Source: Maritimibacter alkaliphilus
GTDB taxonomy: Bacteria; Pseudomonadota; Alphaproteobacteria; Rhodobacterales; Rhodobacteraceae
Assembly (NCBI RefSeq): GCF_019801605.1
Contig: NZ_JAHVIT010000002.1
Location: 372,001 to 436,000 of the forward strand
Length of the DNA: 64,000 nt
Direction: 5' to 3'
This document shows, in pieces, positions 2,816 to 63,547 of the stretch. Below the pieces are notes generated by a model that saw nothing but the letters and a program-made list of their open reading frames with translations, was not told the origin of the DNA and did no database searches. Position 1 is the stretch's first letter. Each line of letters starts with the position of its first letter. The position numbers were made by a program, and so were the translations under genes.

Positions 2816-3658
2816 GTGCAGGTAGTCATGATCCCCGCAGGCCACCGCAGGCTGAGCCTTGACGGGTTGCTCCCCGGTGGCGGCGTTCTACGGTGCCTGG
2901 CCTTCCGATACCTTCTTCTATGGACCTTGGTCTGCGAAGGTGCCCTCGGCGGAGGGCGTCTTGGGGCGCAGGAGGCGCTGCTTTGCGACCACGCGGCGCG
3001 ACAGGCATCGATGGAGAGCGGCGTTCCGCTGGACGTGCTGCTGGCGATCACGCGGACAGAGACCGGTCGTATGCGGGCCGGGCGGATCGAGCCCTGGCCC
3101 TGGACGGTGAACATGGAGGGCAAGGGGCTCTGGTTCGATACCCCGAGAGAGGCGCAGGCCTATATTGCAGAGCGCCACGCGGAGGGTGCGCGCTCCTACG
3201 ATGTGGGCTGCTTCCAGATCAACTATCGCTGGCACGGAGAGGCCTTCTCCTCGCTTGCCACCATGATGGACCCCTTGCCGAACGCGCGCTACGCGGCGCA
3301 ATTCCTGCAGGAGCTCTACGAGGAGACCGGCTCATGGTCCGAGGCGGCGGGGGCCTATCATTCCCGGACCCGCGTTCATGCCACCCGCTACCGGGCGCGG
3401 TTCGACCGGATTCGCCGGTCGGTTGCCGATCTCGCCCCGGCGGATGTGTTGCCCCGCACTCTCGCATCCCGGCGCGGACAAACCCCTCCGCGCGAGATCT
3501 CGGCGCGGGTCAACCGTTTCCCGCTGCTCCAGCTCCCACCGGAGGGTCACCTGACATCCAGTTACGGATCGCTCGTGGCGCTGCCGGCCAACGGGGCGCG
3601 GCCTCTTTCGGCGGCGCCCCGGGTCGCGCTTCTGCCTGACCGTCGGGCACGGCCCTGA
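2816..3658 (+). CDS. Lytic transglycosylase of the flagellar cluster (SltF-like)
   Basis: This is a secreted murein lytic transglycosylase with an SLT-type fold. The GTG start at 2816 has AAGGAG five bases upstream; an in-frame ATG lies at 2828. A hydrophobic export segment lies near residues 30-45 (FRYLLLWTLV). The catalytic domain follows, with the general acid in TRTETG, then DVGCFQINYRWHGEAF and AGAYHS, which are hallmarks of goose-lysozyme/SLT enzymes. The tail beyond about residue 195 is unstructured and proline/arginine-rich. It lies two bases upstream of flhA. In Rhodobacter sphaeroides a separate SltF opens the wall for the rod because its FlgJ has no muramidase domain. The same arrangement is inferred here from the 94-residue rod-binding protein at 18312-18596. 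Confidence 0.88.
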   Translation: MQVVMIPAGHRRLSLDGLLPGGGVLRCLAFRYLLLWTLVCEGALGGGRLGAQEALLCDHAARQASMESGVPLDVLLAITRTETGRMRAGRIEPWPWTVNMEGKGLWFDTPREAQAYIAERHAEGARSYDVGCFQINYRWHGEAFSSLATMMDPLPNARYAAQFLQELYEETGSWSEAAGAYHSRTRVHATRYRARFDRIRRSVADLAPADVLPRTLASRRGQTPPREISARVNRFPLLQLPPEGHLTSSYGSLVALPANGARPLSAAPRVALLPDRRARP

Positions 3659-49281: not shown

Positions 49282-49344
49282 ATTGGATACGATTTGTTAT
49301 CGATGGCAGTCCGTATTCAATCTGGCAAGCAAATTGTATCCAAT
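49282..49344. promoter_or_regulatory. Paired GntR-type operator sites
   Basis: ATTGGATACGATTTG at 49282-49296 and CAAATTGTATCCAAT at 49330-49344 are inverted copies differing at one base. Each contains an ATTG-N4-CAAT type core close to the FCD/GntR pattern. Further TTGTA half-sites occur at 49261 and 49357. They lie in the 145-base region between the divergent binding-protein and GntR genes. Confidence 0.6.
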
Positions 49345-49383
49345 TGACGGAAAAATTTGTATGCGATATGACAGGGTGCAAAG

Positions 49384-50091
49384 ATGACGAGCGAACCGAC
49401 CATGAGTGACAGCAAGAACACCCTGACCAACGCGGTGCATGACCTGCTCCGCCGGGCGATCATCGAGCAGGCCCTGAAGCCCGGGATGCGCCTGCCGGAG
49501 GACACCGTGGGCGAGCAGTTCGGGGTGAGTCGCACCATCGTGCGCCATGCGCTCGTGCGGCTCGAGAACGAGGGACTCGTGATCACGCGGCGCAACCGGG
49601 GGGCCTTCGTGGCCGAACCGTCCCGCGAGGAGGCGCAACAGATCTTCGAGGTGCGCAGATGCCTTGAAAACGAAGTGATCCGCATCCTCTGCGAGCGCTT
49701 GCCCTCCAATGCCTGCGACCGGCTGGAGGCCCATGTGCGCAGCGAGGAGACGGTGAAGGGCAAGGATGGCCCGGTGTCGATCCGGCTGGCCGGGGAATTC
49801 CACATCCTGCTGGCCGAGCTGACCGGCAACGAGGTGCTGGCCCGCTACGTCACCGAGGTCGTGCTGCGCTGTTCGCTGATCATGTCGCTCTACGCCCGGA
49901 CCCATTCCTCCGATTGCGCCGTCGACGAGCATTCCCAGATCATCGAGGCGATCCGCGCCGGGGACGCCGCGCGCGCGATCGGGATCATGGACCATCATTT
50001 GGGTGCCGTGGCCGGGCGGGCAGAGCTGTCGCCCCGGGCGGATAGTATCCAATCCATTCTGTCCCGCTACGGCAAGGAGCTGGCCCAGTGA
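49384..50091 (+). CDS. GntR family regulator, FCD domain
   Basis: This 235-residue regulator has an N-terminal winged helix (LRRAIIEQALKPGMRLPEDTVGEQFGVSRTIVRHALVRLENEGLV). An all-helical FCD ligand domain follows, with metal/ligand residues in EFHILLAELTGN and DEHSQIIEAIRAGDAARA. It is divergent from the ABC/amidohydrolase operon and most likely represses it until its substrate or a product binds. The stop overlaps the flavin reductase start. A second candidate start is the ATG at 49402. Confidence 0.92.
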   Translation: MTSEPTMSDSKNTLTNAVHDLLRRAIIEQALKPGMRLPEDTVGEQFGVSRTIVRHALVRLENEGLVITRRNRGAFVAEPSREEAQQIFEVRRCLENEVIRILCERLPSNACDRLEAHVRSEETVKGKDGPVSIRLAGEFHILLAELTGNEVLARYVTEVVLRCSLIMSLYARTHSSDCAVDEHSQIIEAIRAGDAARAIGIMDHHLGAVAGRAELSPRADSIQSILSRYGKELAQ

Positions 50092-59984: not shown

Positions 59985-60014
59985 CGGGGGATCAGAAGGC
60001 GGGGGATCAGAAGG
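59985..60014. repeat. 15-bp tandem duplication at the end of the GntR gene
   Basis: GGGGGATCAGAAGG is present twice with a one-base step. The right copy spans the stop codon of the minus-strand GntR gene, and the left copy duplicates it downstream. Confidence 0.85.
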
Positions 60015-60603
60015 GGGCGTCGGCCAGCGTCAGCATCAGCTGGCGCAGGGTCGGGGCCTCGGGGACGGCGGCCATGGTCGCGCGCCAGTCCGCCACCACC
60101 GGCTCCGGCGCATCCGAGAGGTCGCGCATCCGCCACCGCAGGTGGCGCCAGTGCGCGGCACGCAGGGCGTCCGCGAGGATGCGGTCCTTCACGAGGTCCG
60201 AGAGGATTTCCAGAAGCTCGCTGCGCTGCGAGAAATAGACCGGCGCGATCCGGTCCTCCGGCGCGGCGGCCTGCCGCTGCACGGTCGCGAGCCGCGTGGC
60301 CGCGAGGTCCGGCAGGGTTGCGTCGCAGGTGCAGTCCGCCGCGGCGCGCAGCAGCGAGCGGAAGACGGCGAAATCCATAGGGCGGTGTTCGGGCAGCAGC
60401 GGCGAGACGATCGTGCCGATGCCCGAGCGGGTCTCGACAAGATGCTCGTAGGCCAGCTTCTGCAGCACCTGACGGATCGGCGTGCGCGAAACGCCGAACT
60501 CGGTGGCCAGCATGCCTTCGTGCAGGATCATGTCCTCCTGATCGGCGCGCTGGCAGATCCGTGACCGGACAATATCCGTGATCTCGGATGTCTCCTTGCG
60601 CAT
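60007..60603 (-). CDS. GntR family transcriptional regulator
   Basis: This 198-residue regulator has an N-terminal winged helix (LHEGMLATEFGVSRTPIRQVLQKLAYEHLVETRSGIGTIV) followed by a helical FCD-like ligand domain (FRSLLRAAADCT, SELLEILSDLVKDRILADALRAAHWRH). It is divergent from the phosphatase-like gene with 159 bases between. Its targets are not known; the phosphatase or the locus at 61359-61503 are candidates. Confidence 0.9.
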   Translation of the reverse strand: MRKETSEITDIVRSRICQRADQEDMILHEGMLATEFGVSRTPIRQVLQKLAYEHLVETRSGIGTIVSPLLPEHRPMDFAVFRSLLRAAADCTCDATLPDLAATRLATVQRQAAAPEDRIAPVYFSQRSELLEILSDLVKDRILADALRAAHWRHLRWRMRDLSDAPEPVVADWRATMAAVPEAPTLRQLMLTLADAPF

Positions 60604-60730
60604 GTCTTATTCCGTCATTAGGGCATTAAAGGCCGATTAAGATGCGCTCCGATTGGCCGCGAGGACGGGGGAATGTCAAGGCCCGCTGGCCCGGGACCCC
60701 CCGTCACAGGGGGAAACTCGCCGAAAAATG

Positions 60731-60748
60731 GAATGTTATTTGTCATTC
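60731..60748 (+). promoter_or_regulatory. Short inverted repeat before the phosphatase-like gene
   Basis: GAATG-TTATTTGT-CATTC lies 15 bases before the start codon of the phosphatase-like gene, in the only AT-rich stretch of the divergent region, and may be an operator. Confidence 0.35.
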
Positions 60749-60762
60749 TCTGGAGTTGAACA

Positions 60763-61341
60763 ATGAGCGACCGCATTCGCCCTGTGCTTGAACACCCGCT
60801 ACGCGCAATGGTTCCCGTGCCCGGTGGCGGTTTCTGCCTGATGTCCGGCTATCCGGGGCTTGAGGTCGGGCTCGACGGTGAGGCCTATCTCGACCCGCAG
60901 GCCGCGCGCGAAGCGCTGAAGGCGATGCTGGCGCAGGGGGCCGATACGCTGATCGTTCTGGCGGAGGCGCCCGAGCTGCCCGAGGGCAACCACGACATGC
61001 TGCGCCGGCTCTGCCCCGACGGGCTGGAGCTGCATTTCCTGCCGTGCCGGGACTTCGAGGTCCCCGATGCGACCTTCACGGCCCGCTGGAACAGCCTGCG
61101 CCCGGCCCTCGCCGCGCGCTTTGCGGCGGGCGGGACCATCGCCATGGCCTGCCAGTATGGCGCCGGACGCAGCGGGTTGCTGACCGCGCTGGTGCTGATC
61201 GAGGAGGGGCAGACGCCCGCGGCGGCCATCGCAACGGTGCGGCGCCACTTCCACGAAGCGGTGGAGAGCGAGGTTCAGGAAAACTGGCTGCTTGCACAGG
61301 TTTCGGGCAACACTCTTGGCAAGAATTTATCAAAAGGATAA
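60763..61341 (+). CDS. Dual-specificity/tyrosine phosphatase-like protein
   Basis: This 192-residue protein carries the phosphatase P-loop CQYGAGRSG (CX5RS) near residue 129, in the usual strand-loop-helix setting (GTIAMA before, LLTALVLIEEG after). The common His before the Cys is Ala here. An acidic residue for acid catalysis could lie in FEVPDATF. It is probably cytoplasmic. The substrate is unknown; some relatives act on small molecules rather than proteins. Confidence 0.82.
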   Translation: MSDRIRPVLEHPLRAMVPVPGGGFCLMSGYPGLEVGLDGEAYLDPQAAREALKAMLAQGADTLIVLAEAPELPEGNHDMLRRLCPDGLELHFLPCRDFEVPDATFTARWNSLRPALAARFAAGGTIAMACQYGAGRSGLLTALVLIEEGQTPAAAIATVRRHFHEAVESEVQENWLLAQVSGNTLGKNLSKG

Positions 61342-61744
61342 ATTTTGCCTGAGAATCGTTGACTTAACTCCTGTATACAGGCATCTAGGTCGACGAGGCG
61401 TCGCATGGTCCCGCATCCAATTGGCCATGTAGCGGATACCGCATCGATGCCCCGAAGGAAGGGTAGAAGCAGGCCGGACGGAGACGTCCGGCCTTCGCCT
61501 TTTCGGGGTCCTGCCGTTTCGACACTTCCGTCTCGGGCTCAACCTTTAAGGGTCCTCCCTGCTTCCGTACGATCCCTTTTGTGGCCGACAGGATCGGTCT
61601 GCGGCCTCGGGGCGTTTGCCGTCCCCGGGGCGCGGACAGCGCGGCCCCTGAAACGCAGGGCCCGGCGCTTGCGCCCGAAGCGGGCGCCAGCCGCGGTCTG
61701 CGGATGCGGCGGCCCGGCGTGGAACGCCTGCCGCCGCGGAGGGC
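61342..61744. other. Gene-free region containing a probable small RNA
   Basis: These 403 bases lie between the phosphatase-like gene and the peroxiredoxin stop. The first 160 bases hold a promoter-like TTGACT, a 12-bp palindrome and a hairpin series ending in a terminator. The remainder is GC-rich with no supported gene. A short frame starting at the ATG at 61405 could encode a small peptide, but it has no clear ribosome site. Confidence 0.65.
61359..61503 (+). ncRNA. Candidate small structured RNA with an operator at its promoter
   Basis: TTGACT (61359-61364) is followed by the perfect palindrome CCTGTATACAGG (61370-61381) in the promoter spacer, a GntR-type operator. Downstream are the hairpin CGACG-AGG-CGTCG (61391-61403), GCGG-ATA-CCGC (61432-61442) and a strong 9-bp terminator stem GGCCGGACG / CGTCCGGCC (61472-61493) with a TTCGCCTTTT tail. 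No coding frame fits the whole unit. It is an inferred regulatory RNA; no known family is recognised. Confidence 0.5.
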
Positions 61745-62233
61745 TCAGAGCGCGGCGACCATCGACTTGCCGCCGGAGATGTCGCAGGTGCCCGGGCTCT
61801 CCTCGAGGTGCAGCACGGTGACCTTGCCGTCCTCGACCGCCATGGCGTAGCGCTTGGAGCGGTTGATCAGGCCCGCCGGGGGGGCGCTGAAGTCGAGGCC
61901 GATGGCCGTGGTGAAGGCGCTCTCGGGGTCGCAGAGCATGGTGATGCCGGCCTCGCCCGCGCCGGTGTCCTTGCTCCAGGCGCCCATGACGAAGGGATCG
62001 TTAACGCTGACGCAGATGACTTCGTCCACGCCCTTGGCCTTCAGGTCGTCCATGGCCGCGATGAAGCTGGGCACATGCGCGGTGCTGCAGACGCCGGTAT
62101 AGGCACCGGGCAGGCCGAAGATCACGACCTTGCGACCGGCCAGCTTGTCGGCGAGGGCCACGGGTGCGGGGCCTTCGGCGGTGGGCGCAATGAGGGTCGC
62201 GCCGGGGAGCGTATCGCCTTGGGAAATGGTCAT
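61745..62233 (-). CDS. Peroxiredoxin (Prx5/redoxin type)
   Basis: This peroxiredoxin reduces peroxides through a cysteine. The open frame is much longer, but the ATG at 62233 with GGAGGAC upstream starts a 162-residue product of normal size. The catalytic motif PGAYTGVCSTAHVPSF contains the peroxidatic Cys, and WSKDTGAGE and the SPGTCDISGG C-terminal Cys fit the Prx5 branch. It is divergent from the ferredoxin reductase gene with 93 bases between them. Confidence 0.93.
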   Translation of the reverse strand: MTISQGDTLPGATLIAPTAEGPAPVALADKLAGRKVVIFGLPGAYTGVCSTAHVPSFIAAMDDLKAKGVDEVICVSVNDPFVMGAWSKDTGAGEAGITMLCDPESAFTTAIGLDFSAPPAGLINRSKRYAMAVEDGKVTVLHLEESPGTCDISGGKSMVAAL

Positions 62234-62326
62234 CTGTCCTCCATCGGGATGAATTGTGTTTTGCCTGACGACGGATGTAGAGTGCCGGCGCCGTACGACG
62301 ACGACAGAACAGGAGGATGCGTCCGG

Positions 62327-63547
62327 ATGGAACAGGAAAATCGCCATATTGTCGTTGTCGGGGCAGGACAGGCCGGGGCTGCATTGGTCGCCCGGCTGCG
62401 GGGCAAGGGCTATGCCGGGCCGATCACGCTGATCGGAACGGAGAGGGTGCCGCCCTACCAACGGCCGCCGCTGTCGAAGAAATACCTGCTGGGCGAGTTC
62501 GCGCTGGAGCGGCTCTTCCTGCGGCCCGAGGTCTTCTACGAGGAGCATGACATCACCCTGCGCCTTGGCACCACTGTCGAGGGCATCGACACCGGGGCGA
62601 AGACGCTGCTGCTGGCCGGGGGCGAGGTGCTGGGCTGGGACGAGCTGGTGCTGACCACCGGGTCGCACGCGCGGCGGCTGCCGGCGGCGATCGGGGGCGA
62701 TCTGCCCGGGGTCTACGTGATGCGCGATCTGGCCGATGCCGATGCGCTTGCACCCGAGATGCAGCCGGGCCGCCGGCTGGTCATCGTGGGCGGCGGCTAC
62801 ATCGGGCTGGAGGCCGCCGCGGTGGCGGCCAAGCTGGGGCTGGAGGTCACGCTGATCGAAGCTGCGCCGCGCATCCTGCAGCGCGTTGCCTGCGCCGAGA
62901 CCTCGGACTACTTCCGCGCCCTGCACGAAAGCCACGGGGTCACGATCCTCGAAGGCATCGGGCTGGAGCGGCTGACCGGCGAGGACCGTGTCACAGGTGC
63001 GCGGCTGAGCGACGGGCGCGAGATCGCGGCGGATGCCGTGATCACCGGCATCGGGATCGCGCCGGGCATGTCGCTGGCGGAGGCCGCAGGCCTCACCTGC
63101 GAGAACGGCATCTCGGTCGACCTTCAGGGGCGGACCTCCGAGGCCGGCATCTGGGCGGCGGGCGATTGCGCCTCCTTCCCGCTGCGCGGCCAGCGGCTGC
63201 GGCTGGAGAGCGTGCAGAACGCGATCGACCAGTCGGAAGCCGTGGCGGACAACCTCATGGGGGCCGGTACCGACTATGCGCCGAAGCCTTGGTTCTGGTC
63301 CGACCAATACGACGTGAAACTGCAGATCGCCGGGCTGAACCTCGGCTATGACAGGGTGGTCGTCCGGGCGGGCGAGGGGCTGGTGCGGTCGCATTGGTAC
63401 TATGCGGGCGAGACCCTGCTGGCCGTGGACGCGATGAACGATCCGCGCGCCTACATGGTGGGCAAGCGCCTGATCGACGCGGGCAAAAGCGCGCCGGCAG
63501 AGGCCGTGGCGGACCCCGCGGTCGAGCTCAAGACGCTGCTGCGCTGA
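62327..63547 (+). CDS. NAD(P)/FAD ferredoxin reductase
   Basis: This 406-residue flavoprotein resembles putidaredoxin/rhodocoxin reductases, which pass electrons from NADH to a [2Fe-2S] ferredoxin. The ATG at 62327 begins MEQENRHIVVVGAGQAGAAL with the FAD site; TERVPPYQRPPLSKKYLLGE is typical of the family. The NAD site is VGGGYIGLEAAAVAAKLG and the second FAD site WAAGDCASF. The ferredoxin and oxygenase partners are not in the window. The next gene starts within its stop (TGATG). Confidence 0.93.
   Translation: MEQENRHIVVVGAGQAGAALVARLRGKGYAGPITLIGTERVPPYQRPPLSKKYLLGEFALERLFLRPEVFYEEHDITLRLGTTVEGIDTGAKTLLLAGGEVLGWDELVLTTGSHARRLPAAIGGDLPGVYVMRDLADADALAPEMQPGRRLVIVGGGYIGLEAAAVAAKLGLEVTLIEAAPRILQRVACAETSDYFRALHESHGVTILEGIGLERLTGEDRVTGARLSDGREIAADAVITGIGIAPGMSLAEAAGLTCENGISVDLQGRTSEAGIWAAGDCASFPLRGQRLRLESVQNAIDQSEAVADNLMGAGTDYAPKPWFWSDQYDVKLQIAGLNLGYDRVVVRAGEGLVRSHWYYAGETLLAVDAMNDPRAYMVGKRLIDAGKSAPAEAVADPAVELKTLLR

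Follow-up and report, generated by a model that had tools for sequence, protein, structure and literature searches.

The locus and its elements

In the window, by which we mean the whole 64,000-nucleotide stretch of DNA that was analysed, a gene for a small GntR-type regulator and a gene for a phosphatase-like protein lie next to a short intergenic unit, beyond which a convergent peroxiredoxin gene follows (Table 1). The whole unit covers about 61359–61504 and is enclosed by the stops of the phosphatase-like gene (61341) and of the peroxiredoxin gene (61745). A preliminary description, made from the sequence, had noted here a promoter-like TTGACT with a perfect palindrome in its spacer, a weak -10 element, two small hairpins and a final GC-rich hairpin, and all of these elements were recovered, the hairpins by fold prediction. 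Its proposal of a regulated small RNA of about 100 bases is supported by the comparative evidence given below, with the size now put at ~110 nt. Its other option, a leader of a downstream gene, is rejected because the next gene, that for the peroxiredoxin, is convergent here and in the relatives examined, which were searched for units on the strand convergent to this gene only.

Table 1. Features of the gntR–phosphatase–peroxiredoxin region, in window coordinates
Feature	Position	Strand	Basis or remark
gntR, 198 aa, VanR/FCD-like fold, proposed regulator of the candidate operator	60007..60603	-	
CX5R tyrosine/dual-specificity-phosphatase-like protein	60763..61341	+	distant PRL/DUSP matches in PDB, best E 0.0004
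-35-like TTGACT	61359..61364	+	sequence; TTGAC in corresponding gap of 17/21 genus genomes
Spacer, 17 nt	61365-61381		carries palindrome CCTGTATACAGG
Candidate operator, perfect palindrome CCTGTATACAGG	61370..61381	.	within 17-nt spacer; kept in spacer of other genus members
Weak -10-like CATCTA	61382..61387	+	relatives: weak -10-like hexamers at 16-18 nt spacing (by eye)
Predicted small RNA, ~110 nt	61394..61503	+	5' end inferred from -10, 3' end from hairpin
Closing stem with inner hairpins 61403-61430 and 61432-61442	61394..61454	+	2 pairs changed on both sides in G007
Purine-rich linker GAAGGAAGGGTAGAAGC, candidate pairing region	61454..61470	+	identical in G007
GC-rich terminator-like hairpin, then UUCGCCUUUU	61472..61493	+	fold prediction
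Convergent peroxiredoxin gene (Redoxin)	61745..62233	-	syntenic anchor

The RNA of 61385–61505 is predicted to fold at -55.8 kcal/mol, compared to a mean of -42.2 for shuffled sequences (sd 4.2; z -3.2), none of 200 of which folded as low. A consensus scanner called no terminator at the unit, the tail of which is U-rich, though not a pure U run. The Rfam search that had been suggested earlier returned no family at gathering score in the window, where a closer look gave sub-threshold matches at chance level (E 0.8–3), and none in the relatives, where matches were likewise below gathering score, which sets aside a known Rfam RNA; likewise, we found no report of this RNA or site in the open-licence PMC literature. 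The palindrome is the sole site of its kind in the window at up to two mismatches, and 40 of 100 shuffled sequences contained one or more comparable matches. That it occurs at all in 64 kb is therefore unsurprising; its place and its conservation are beyond chance.

Conservation of the unit within the genus

The genus set comprised 22 Pseudooceanicola genomes, including the window genome (G000) and its nearest named relative, Pseudooceanicola nanhaiensis (G007; locus L046, from P. nanhaiensis DP2Y115-3, is the same place). Among the relatives in a DNA search of 60 genomes, only G007 yielded the unit in full, at 85% identity, while four further matches in the genus (E about 0.004–0.01) covered only 22–32 nt. 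In an alignment of G000 and G007 that runs from the start of the phosphatase gene to the stop of the peroxiredoxin gene, 121 of 139 positions (87%) were identical across 61359–61499, as opposed to 43–60% in the four 50-nt blocks after the unit.

With the peroxiredoxin gene as an anchor, which is found in 21 of the 22 genomes (G020 has no match), a TTGAC-led, hairpin-ended unit could be recognized in the gap before it in 17 of the 21. Sixteen of these combine TTGAC, a weak -10-like hexamer 16–18 nt further on (by eye) and a GC-rich hairpin, with 137–227 nt from TTGAC to hairpin end, and the seventeenth, G018, has TTGACG-N17-TATACT and hairpins; P. sediminis (L053) contributes one additional unit, and none was seen in the peroxiredoxin gap of G004, G006, G011 and G013. 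As units were picked via TTGAC on the strand convergent to peroxiredoxin, this feature is partly selected, and its rate in other genera serves as the control: no more than 330 nt past the peroxiredoxin stop, TTGAC is present in 11 of 12 named loci of the genus, compared to 9 of 67 others.

Predicted structure and compensatory changes

The most informative group of units is a clade of five genomes (G012, G005, G008, G002 and G019), in which a predicted structure of 46 pairs is paired in 88% of cells. Eleven of the 46 stem pairs are changed on both sides, compared to 6.4 in shuffled alignments (2 of 500 as high), and the covariation score is 0.307, compared to 0.133 in shuffles (0 of 500 as high) and at most 0.093 when the structure is slid along the alignment. 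In this clade, the predicted structure is conserved with compensatory changes. The strong count comes from this one clade only; the other clades hold two to three sequences each, or one. In the pair G000/G007, 96% of cells pair, and the two pairs changed on both sides are only suggestive of compensation, since with two sequences the shuffle control does not set them apart from chance (137 of 500 reach this number) and sliding the structure by +3 yields two as well; in the three-genome clade of G003, G009 and G016, 3 of 52 pairs are changed on both sides. The stems and the palindrome, on whose persistence in relatives the preliminary description had made its proposal depend, are both kept.

Between clades, the RNAs do not align (mean column identity 41% in alignment A5), and one structure for all clades was not obtained, a ten-sequence group folding at -3.1 kcal/mol. 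Built on the five-genome clade, covariance model R1 recovers the loci it was trained on at E < 1e-31 and no other clade's unit convincingly, the best overlapping matches on 64 kb having E 0.07 (G016) and 0.12 (G003); outside the genus, its weak matches (E 1e-4 to 5e-3) fall in three genera. Because the sequences cannot be aligned between clades and R1 does not recover the units of other clades, their descent from a single RNA is argued from place and promoter. By eye, a GGGGTAGAAG-like motif, resembling part of the linker, is seen in several other clades.

The strongest competing explanation takes the conserved block for the 3' end of the phosphatase mRNA together with a two-way terminator that it shares with the convergent peroxiredoxin gene, with TTGACT and the palindrome being incidental or serving another function. 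Two-way terminators are common between convergent genes, which is where the unit sits, and the distance from the hairpin end to the peroxiredoxin stop is at most a few tens of bases in G002, G005 and G012. Furthermore, a consensus promoter scan of 60500–62400 did not call the TTGACT promoter; the sole promoter-like site that it called, TTGGCA-N17-TAAATT at 61316–61344, lies inside the end of the phosphatase gene. A terminator, however, would require no conserved promoter beginning with TTGAC and no covarying domain of several helices upstream, and in G002, G012, G016 and G018 the unit is present with no phosphatase gene found beside it, so that we regard this explanation as unlikely.

The neighbouring regulator and its candidate operator

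Two FCD/GntR genes had been noted within 12 kb of the unit. This holds in full for the gene at 49384–50091 (+), whose product matches both GntR and FCD in Pfam, while the 198-aa product of the nearer gene matches Pfam GntR only, its FCD-type fold being suggested by its structural model. At E values up to 1, this protein otherwise matches only helix-turn-helix-type models; Pfam FCD gave no match for it, and was absent among the best 25 of 32 families for 23 members. Its model (pLDDT 92) has its top Foldseek matches in Atu1419/VanR and other GntR proteins, the best being Atu1419, at modest TM-scores of 0.4–0.6 for the top ten. In a profile alignment, its residues Ser39, Arg40, Thr41 and Arg44 correspond to the Atu1419 DNA contacts Ser44, Arg45, Thr46 and Arg49, and they are invariant in 23 of 23 homologues (alignment A6, with G021 left out as a near copy of G017). 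The adjacent phosphatase-like protein matches no Pfam or NCBIfam family at the cut-offs applied, and possibly represents an unnamed family.

The candidate operator fits the signature of FCD/VanR-type sites given in the excerpt of PMC7797058, a GT-N(x)-AC palindrome within a promoter, here with a TGTATACA core. According to the same excerpt, Atu1419 binds ATGTATACAT and needs the G at position 3, and one such palindrome lies between the -10 and -35 elements of its own gene. The earlier idea that a GntR protein reads a TGTATACA-type site is strengthened by these comparisons, and the nearer gene is the better candidate: since comparable sites are found next to related gntR genes in other genera too, including those of G249 described below, and since the contact residues are Atu1419-like, the palindrome most probably belongs to the neighbouring gntR.

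A separate observation concerns the gene at 49384–50091, which carries ATTGTATCCAAT upstream of its start (49333–49391) and has a flavin reductase gene behind it; it is possibly an autoregulated second system.

The operator could also be real and read by another TGTATACA-binding regulator, such as this second protein with its GntR and FCD domains. Many other places carry CTGTATACAG, so that the motif may have several readers. We nevertheless consider this quite unlikely, as the probable site of that protein, upstream of its own gene, has different flanks, and as the palindrome accompanies the neighbouring gntR in several genera.

Distribution of the candidate operator

Within the genus, TGTATACA is found in the RNA promoter of G000, G007, G001, G016, G021 and G017, and a variant takes its place in G010 (CGTATACA), in G003 and G009 (TGTGTACA) and in G014 (AGTATACA). 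In all ten of these genomes, gntR lies beside the unit. The gap between gntR and the phosphatase gene carries TGTATACA in G010, G013 and G019, and, in G015 and L053, TGTATACC, which agrees with the core at 7 of 8 letters. G010 therefore has a site in both positions, and G019, G015, L053 and G013, the last of which has no unit, have one in the gntR/phosphatase gap and none in the RNA promoter. No clear palindrome was seen in either gap read in G002, G005, G008 and G011, all with gntR and G011 also without the unit; G012 (77% complete) and G018 have the unit, no gntR in the 8 kb read and no RNA-promoter site. In a tree of the GntR proteins, several branches of which are weak, the genomes with an RNA-promoter site are spread over all three groups of the genus, and this arrangement is therefore probably old and was sometimes lost.

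As with TTGAC, the position of the motif sets the genus apart: TGTATAC, GTATACA or TGTGTACA occurs within 1.5 kb beyond peroxiredoxin in 9 of 12 genus loci, compared to 2 of 68 others (L067 was too short and was dropped from one count of named loci). CTGTATACAG itself is not enriched genome-wide, with 20 places in 22 genomes compared to 18 for the reversed pattern; five of the 20 are in this cassette and one is upstream of a phosphatase paralogue in G007, with most elsewhere. TGTATACA sites number 1 to 16 each in 20 genomes, compared to 4 to 52 for reversed-pattern controls. The significance of the motif lies in its placement, not in genome-wide enrichment.

Outside the genus, the phosphatase was found in 7 of 246 genomes at E < 1e-25. 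A related gntR is present in six of the seven stretches read (L168 sits on a 7.8-kb contig), and TGTATAC-type sites are present in all seven. The site lies directly upstream of gntR in five of six non-genus loci; in L169 it is just behind gntR, before a transporter-type gene. In L166, L167 and L168, TGTATACA-type sites precede binding-protein genes, behind which the phosphatase-like gene lies; the binding proteins were assigned to SBP_bac_3 by Pfam for L166 and L167 and by eye for L168, and in L169 such a site precedes an apparent phosphonate-type binding-protein gene (by eye). The most clear-cut example is G249, in which the only two TGTATACA sites in 4.2 Mb are found upstream of gntR and upstream of a solute-binding-protein/phosphatase pair; located at 3303 and 5634 of L167 (G249:C11:215000-229000), they make a clean test case for the regulon.

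Some further sites were observed away from the cassette. Two CTGTATACAG sites are apparently conserved between G000 and G007 (G000:C2:1125454 with G007:C1:314562, and G000:C1:576903 with G007:C4:300702), one of which lies near an apparent D,D-carboxypeptidase gene (by eye). Moreover, two TGTATACA-type sites are spaced exactly 63 bp apart in three genera (G006:C17:107786/107849, G022:C7:143544/143607 and G026:C22:37448/37511); in G006, one of the pair falls within a promoter-like stretch, TTGACC-N17-TAGCCT, near an apparent TRAP permease gene (by eye).

Coding tests of the unit

In agreement with the preliminary description, no gene spans the unit: no co-directional gene lies directly behind it, and plus-strand coding is contradicted by the open reading frame from 61405, in which 9 of 14 substitutions fall on codon position 2, the opposite of what coding would give. 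Nor is any frame kept across the clades, which had been named as the observation that would speak against an RNA, with the caveat of a minus-strand frame in the two closest genomes. A conserved 46-codon protein in this frame (61525–61385), downstream of peroxiredoxin and with the RNA as a by-product, is highly improbable: between G000 and G007, 11 of 19 substitutions are at third positions, the period-3 bias in the part tested has P = 0.009 (uncorrected for frames) and 82.5% of 40 residues agree, but five other clades show no such bias (9 of 9 pairs, P 0.15–0.46), the peptide's best match outside the two genomes among 25 loci searched has E 0.002 and lies away from the slot (G004), and the frame would cross the terminator-like hairpin and the stems.

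Proposed model: a small RNA gene under GntR repression

We therefore favour the view, to which we give a probability of roughly 60%, that the unit is a repressible, stand-alone small RNA gene of ~110 nt, set in a cassette of gntR, phosphatase and small RNA. A small structured RNA would be transcribed from its own sigma70-type promoter and would end in the GC-rich hairpin. A dimer of the neighbouring GntR protein would act as repressor by occupying CCTGTATACAGG between the -35 and -10 elements, thereby blocking RNA polymerase, and a ligand would release it, so that the RNA would be expressed together with gntR and the phosphatase-like gene, the other members of the cassette; in some relatives, the promoter gap shared by these two genes carries a comparable site. 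A small nutrient is plausible as the ligand, by analogy, since in other genera a comparable site precedes binding-protein genes before the phosphatase gene.

The RNA would most likely act by base pairing, perhaps via the invariant purine-rich linker. No convincing target emerged: at up to one mismatch, no complement of the linker in a 5' region was common to G000 and G007. The matches numbered 3+1 in G000 and 4+1 in G007, each including the unit itself, compared to 1+1 and 1+2 for reversed-pattern controls. One match common to both genomes is apparently inside coding DNA; another, in G000, precedes a start codon and is absent among the G007 matches.

Comparison with known systems

The closest parallel to the proposed regulator is Atu1419, a VanR-type FCD GntR repressor of Agrobacterium fabrum (excerpt of PMC7797058). 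The two systems have in common the TGTATACA core, a palindrome placed between the -35 and -10 elements, and the same Ser-Arg-Thr-x-x-Arg contacts in helix 3, and Atu1419 is the best structural match of the modelled GntR protein. However, the window protein is shorter (198 aa), is 16–17% identical in structural alignments and has no Pfam FCD match, and the Atu1419 targets described in that excerpt are protein genes, not an RNA.

On the RNA side, denR (sRNA-29) and NirR of the related bacterium Paracoccus denitrificans (excerpt of PMC6686037) likewise form a circuit that joins a small RNA to a GntR regulator. According to this source, the 84-nt denR acts on the gntR mRNA, whereas here the GntR protein is proposed to act on the RNA promoter. 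Small RNAs have also been mapped in the related bacteria Ruegeria pomeroyi (PMC4809877) and P. denitrificans (PMC5107571). The word peroxiredoxin is absent from the main texts of both papers; many Paracoccus small RNAs are restricted to close relatives, according to PMC5107571.

Implications for the genus and the regulator family

A small RNA gene controlled by a repressor is a known kind of control, of which this would be a lineage-restricted example; the novel part is the cassette. Tentatively, and with the odds somewhat against us, we suggest a three-part cassette, in which a GntR repressor reading TGTATACA, a phosphatase-like protein and a fast-evolving structured small RNA are held under one operator. 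In other genera, the related repressor and the phosphatase-like gene occur with solute-binding-protein genes and a comparable site; the RNA gene may have joined this regulon in Pseudooceanicola, and in the course of evolution the site may have been gained and lost in turn at the gntR and RNA promoters.

If this holds true, the regulator, operator and gene neighbourhood of a small RNA in a marine genus would all have been predicted ahead of experiment, and a GntR subfamily would be linked to a phosphatase-like protein that belongs to no named family. The unit would also be a case of a non-coding gene with a stable place and promoter whose sequence is almost completely replaced within a single genus.
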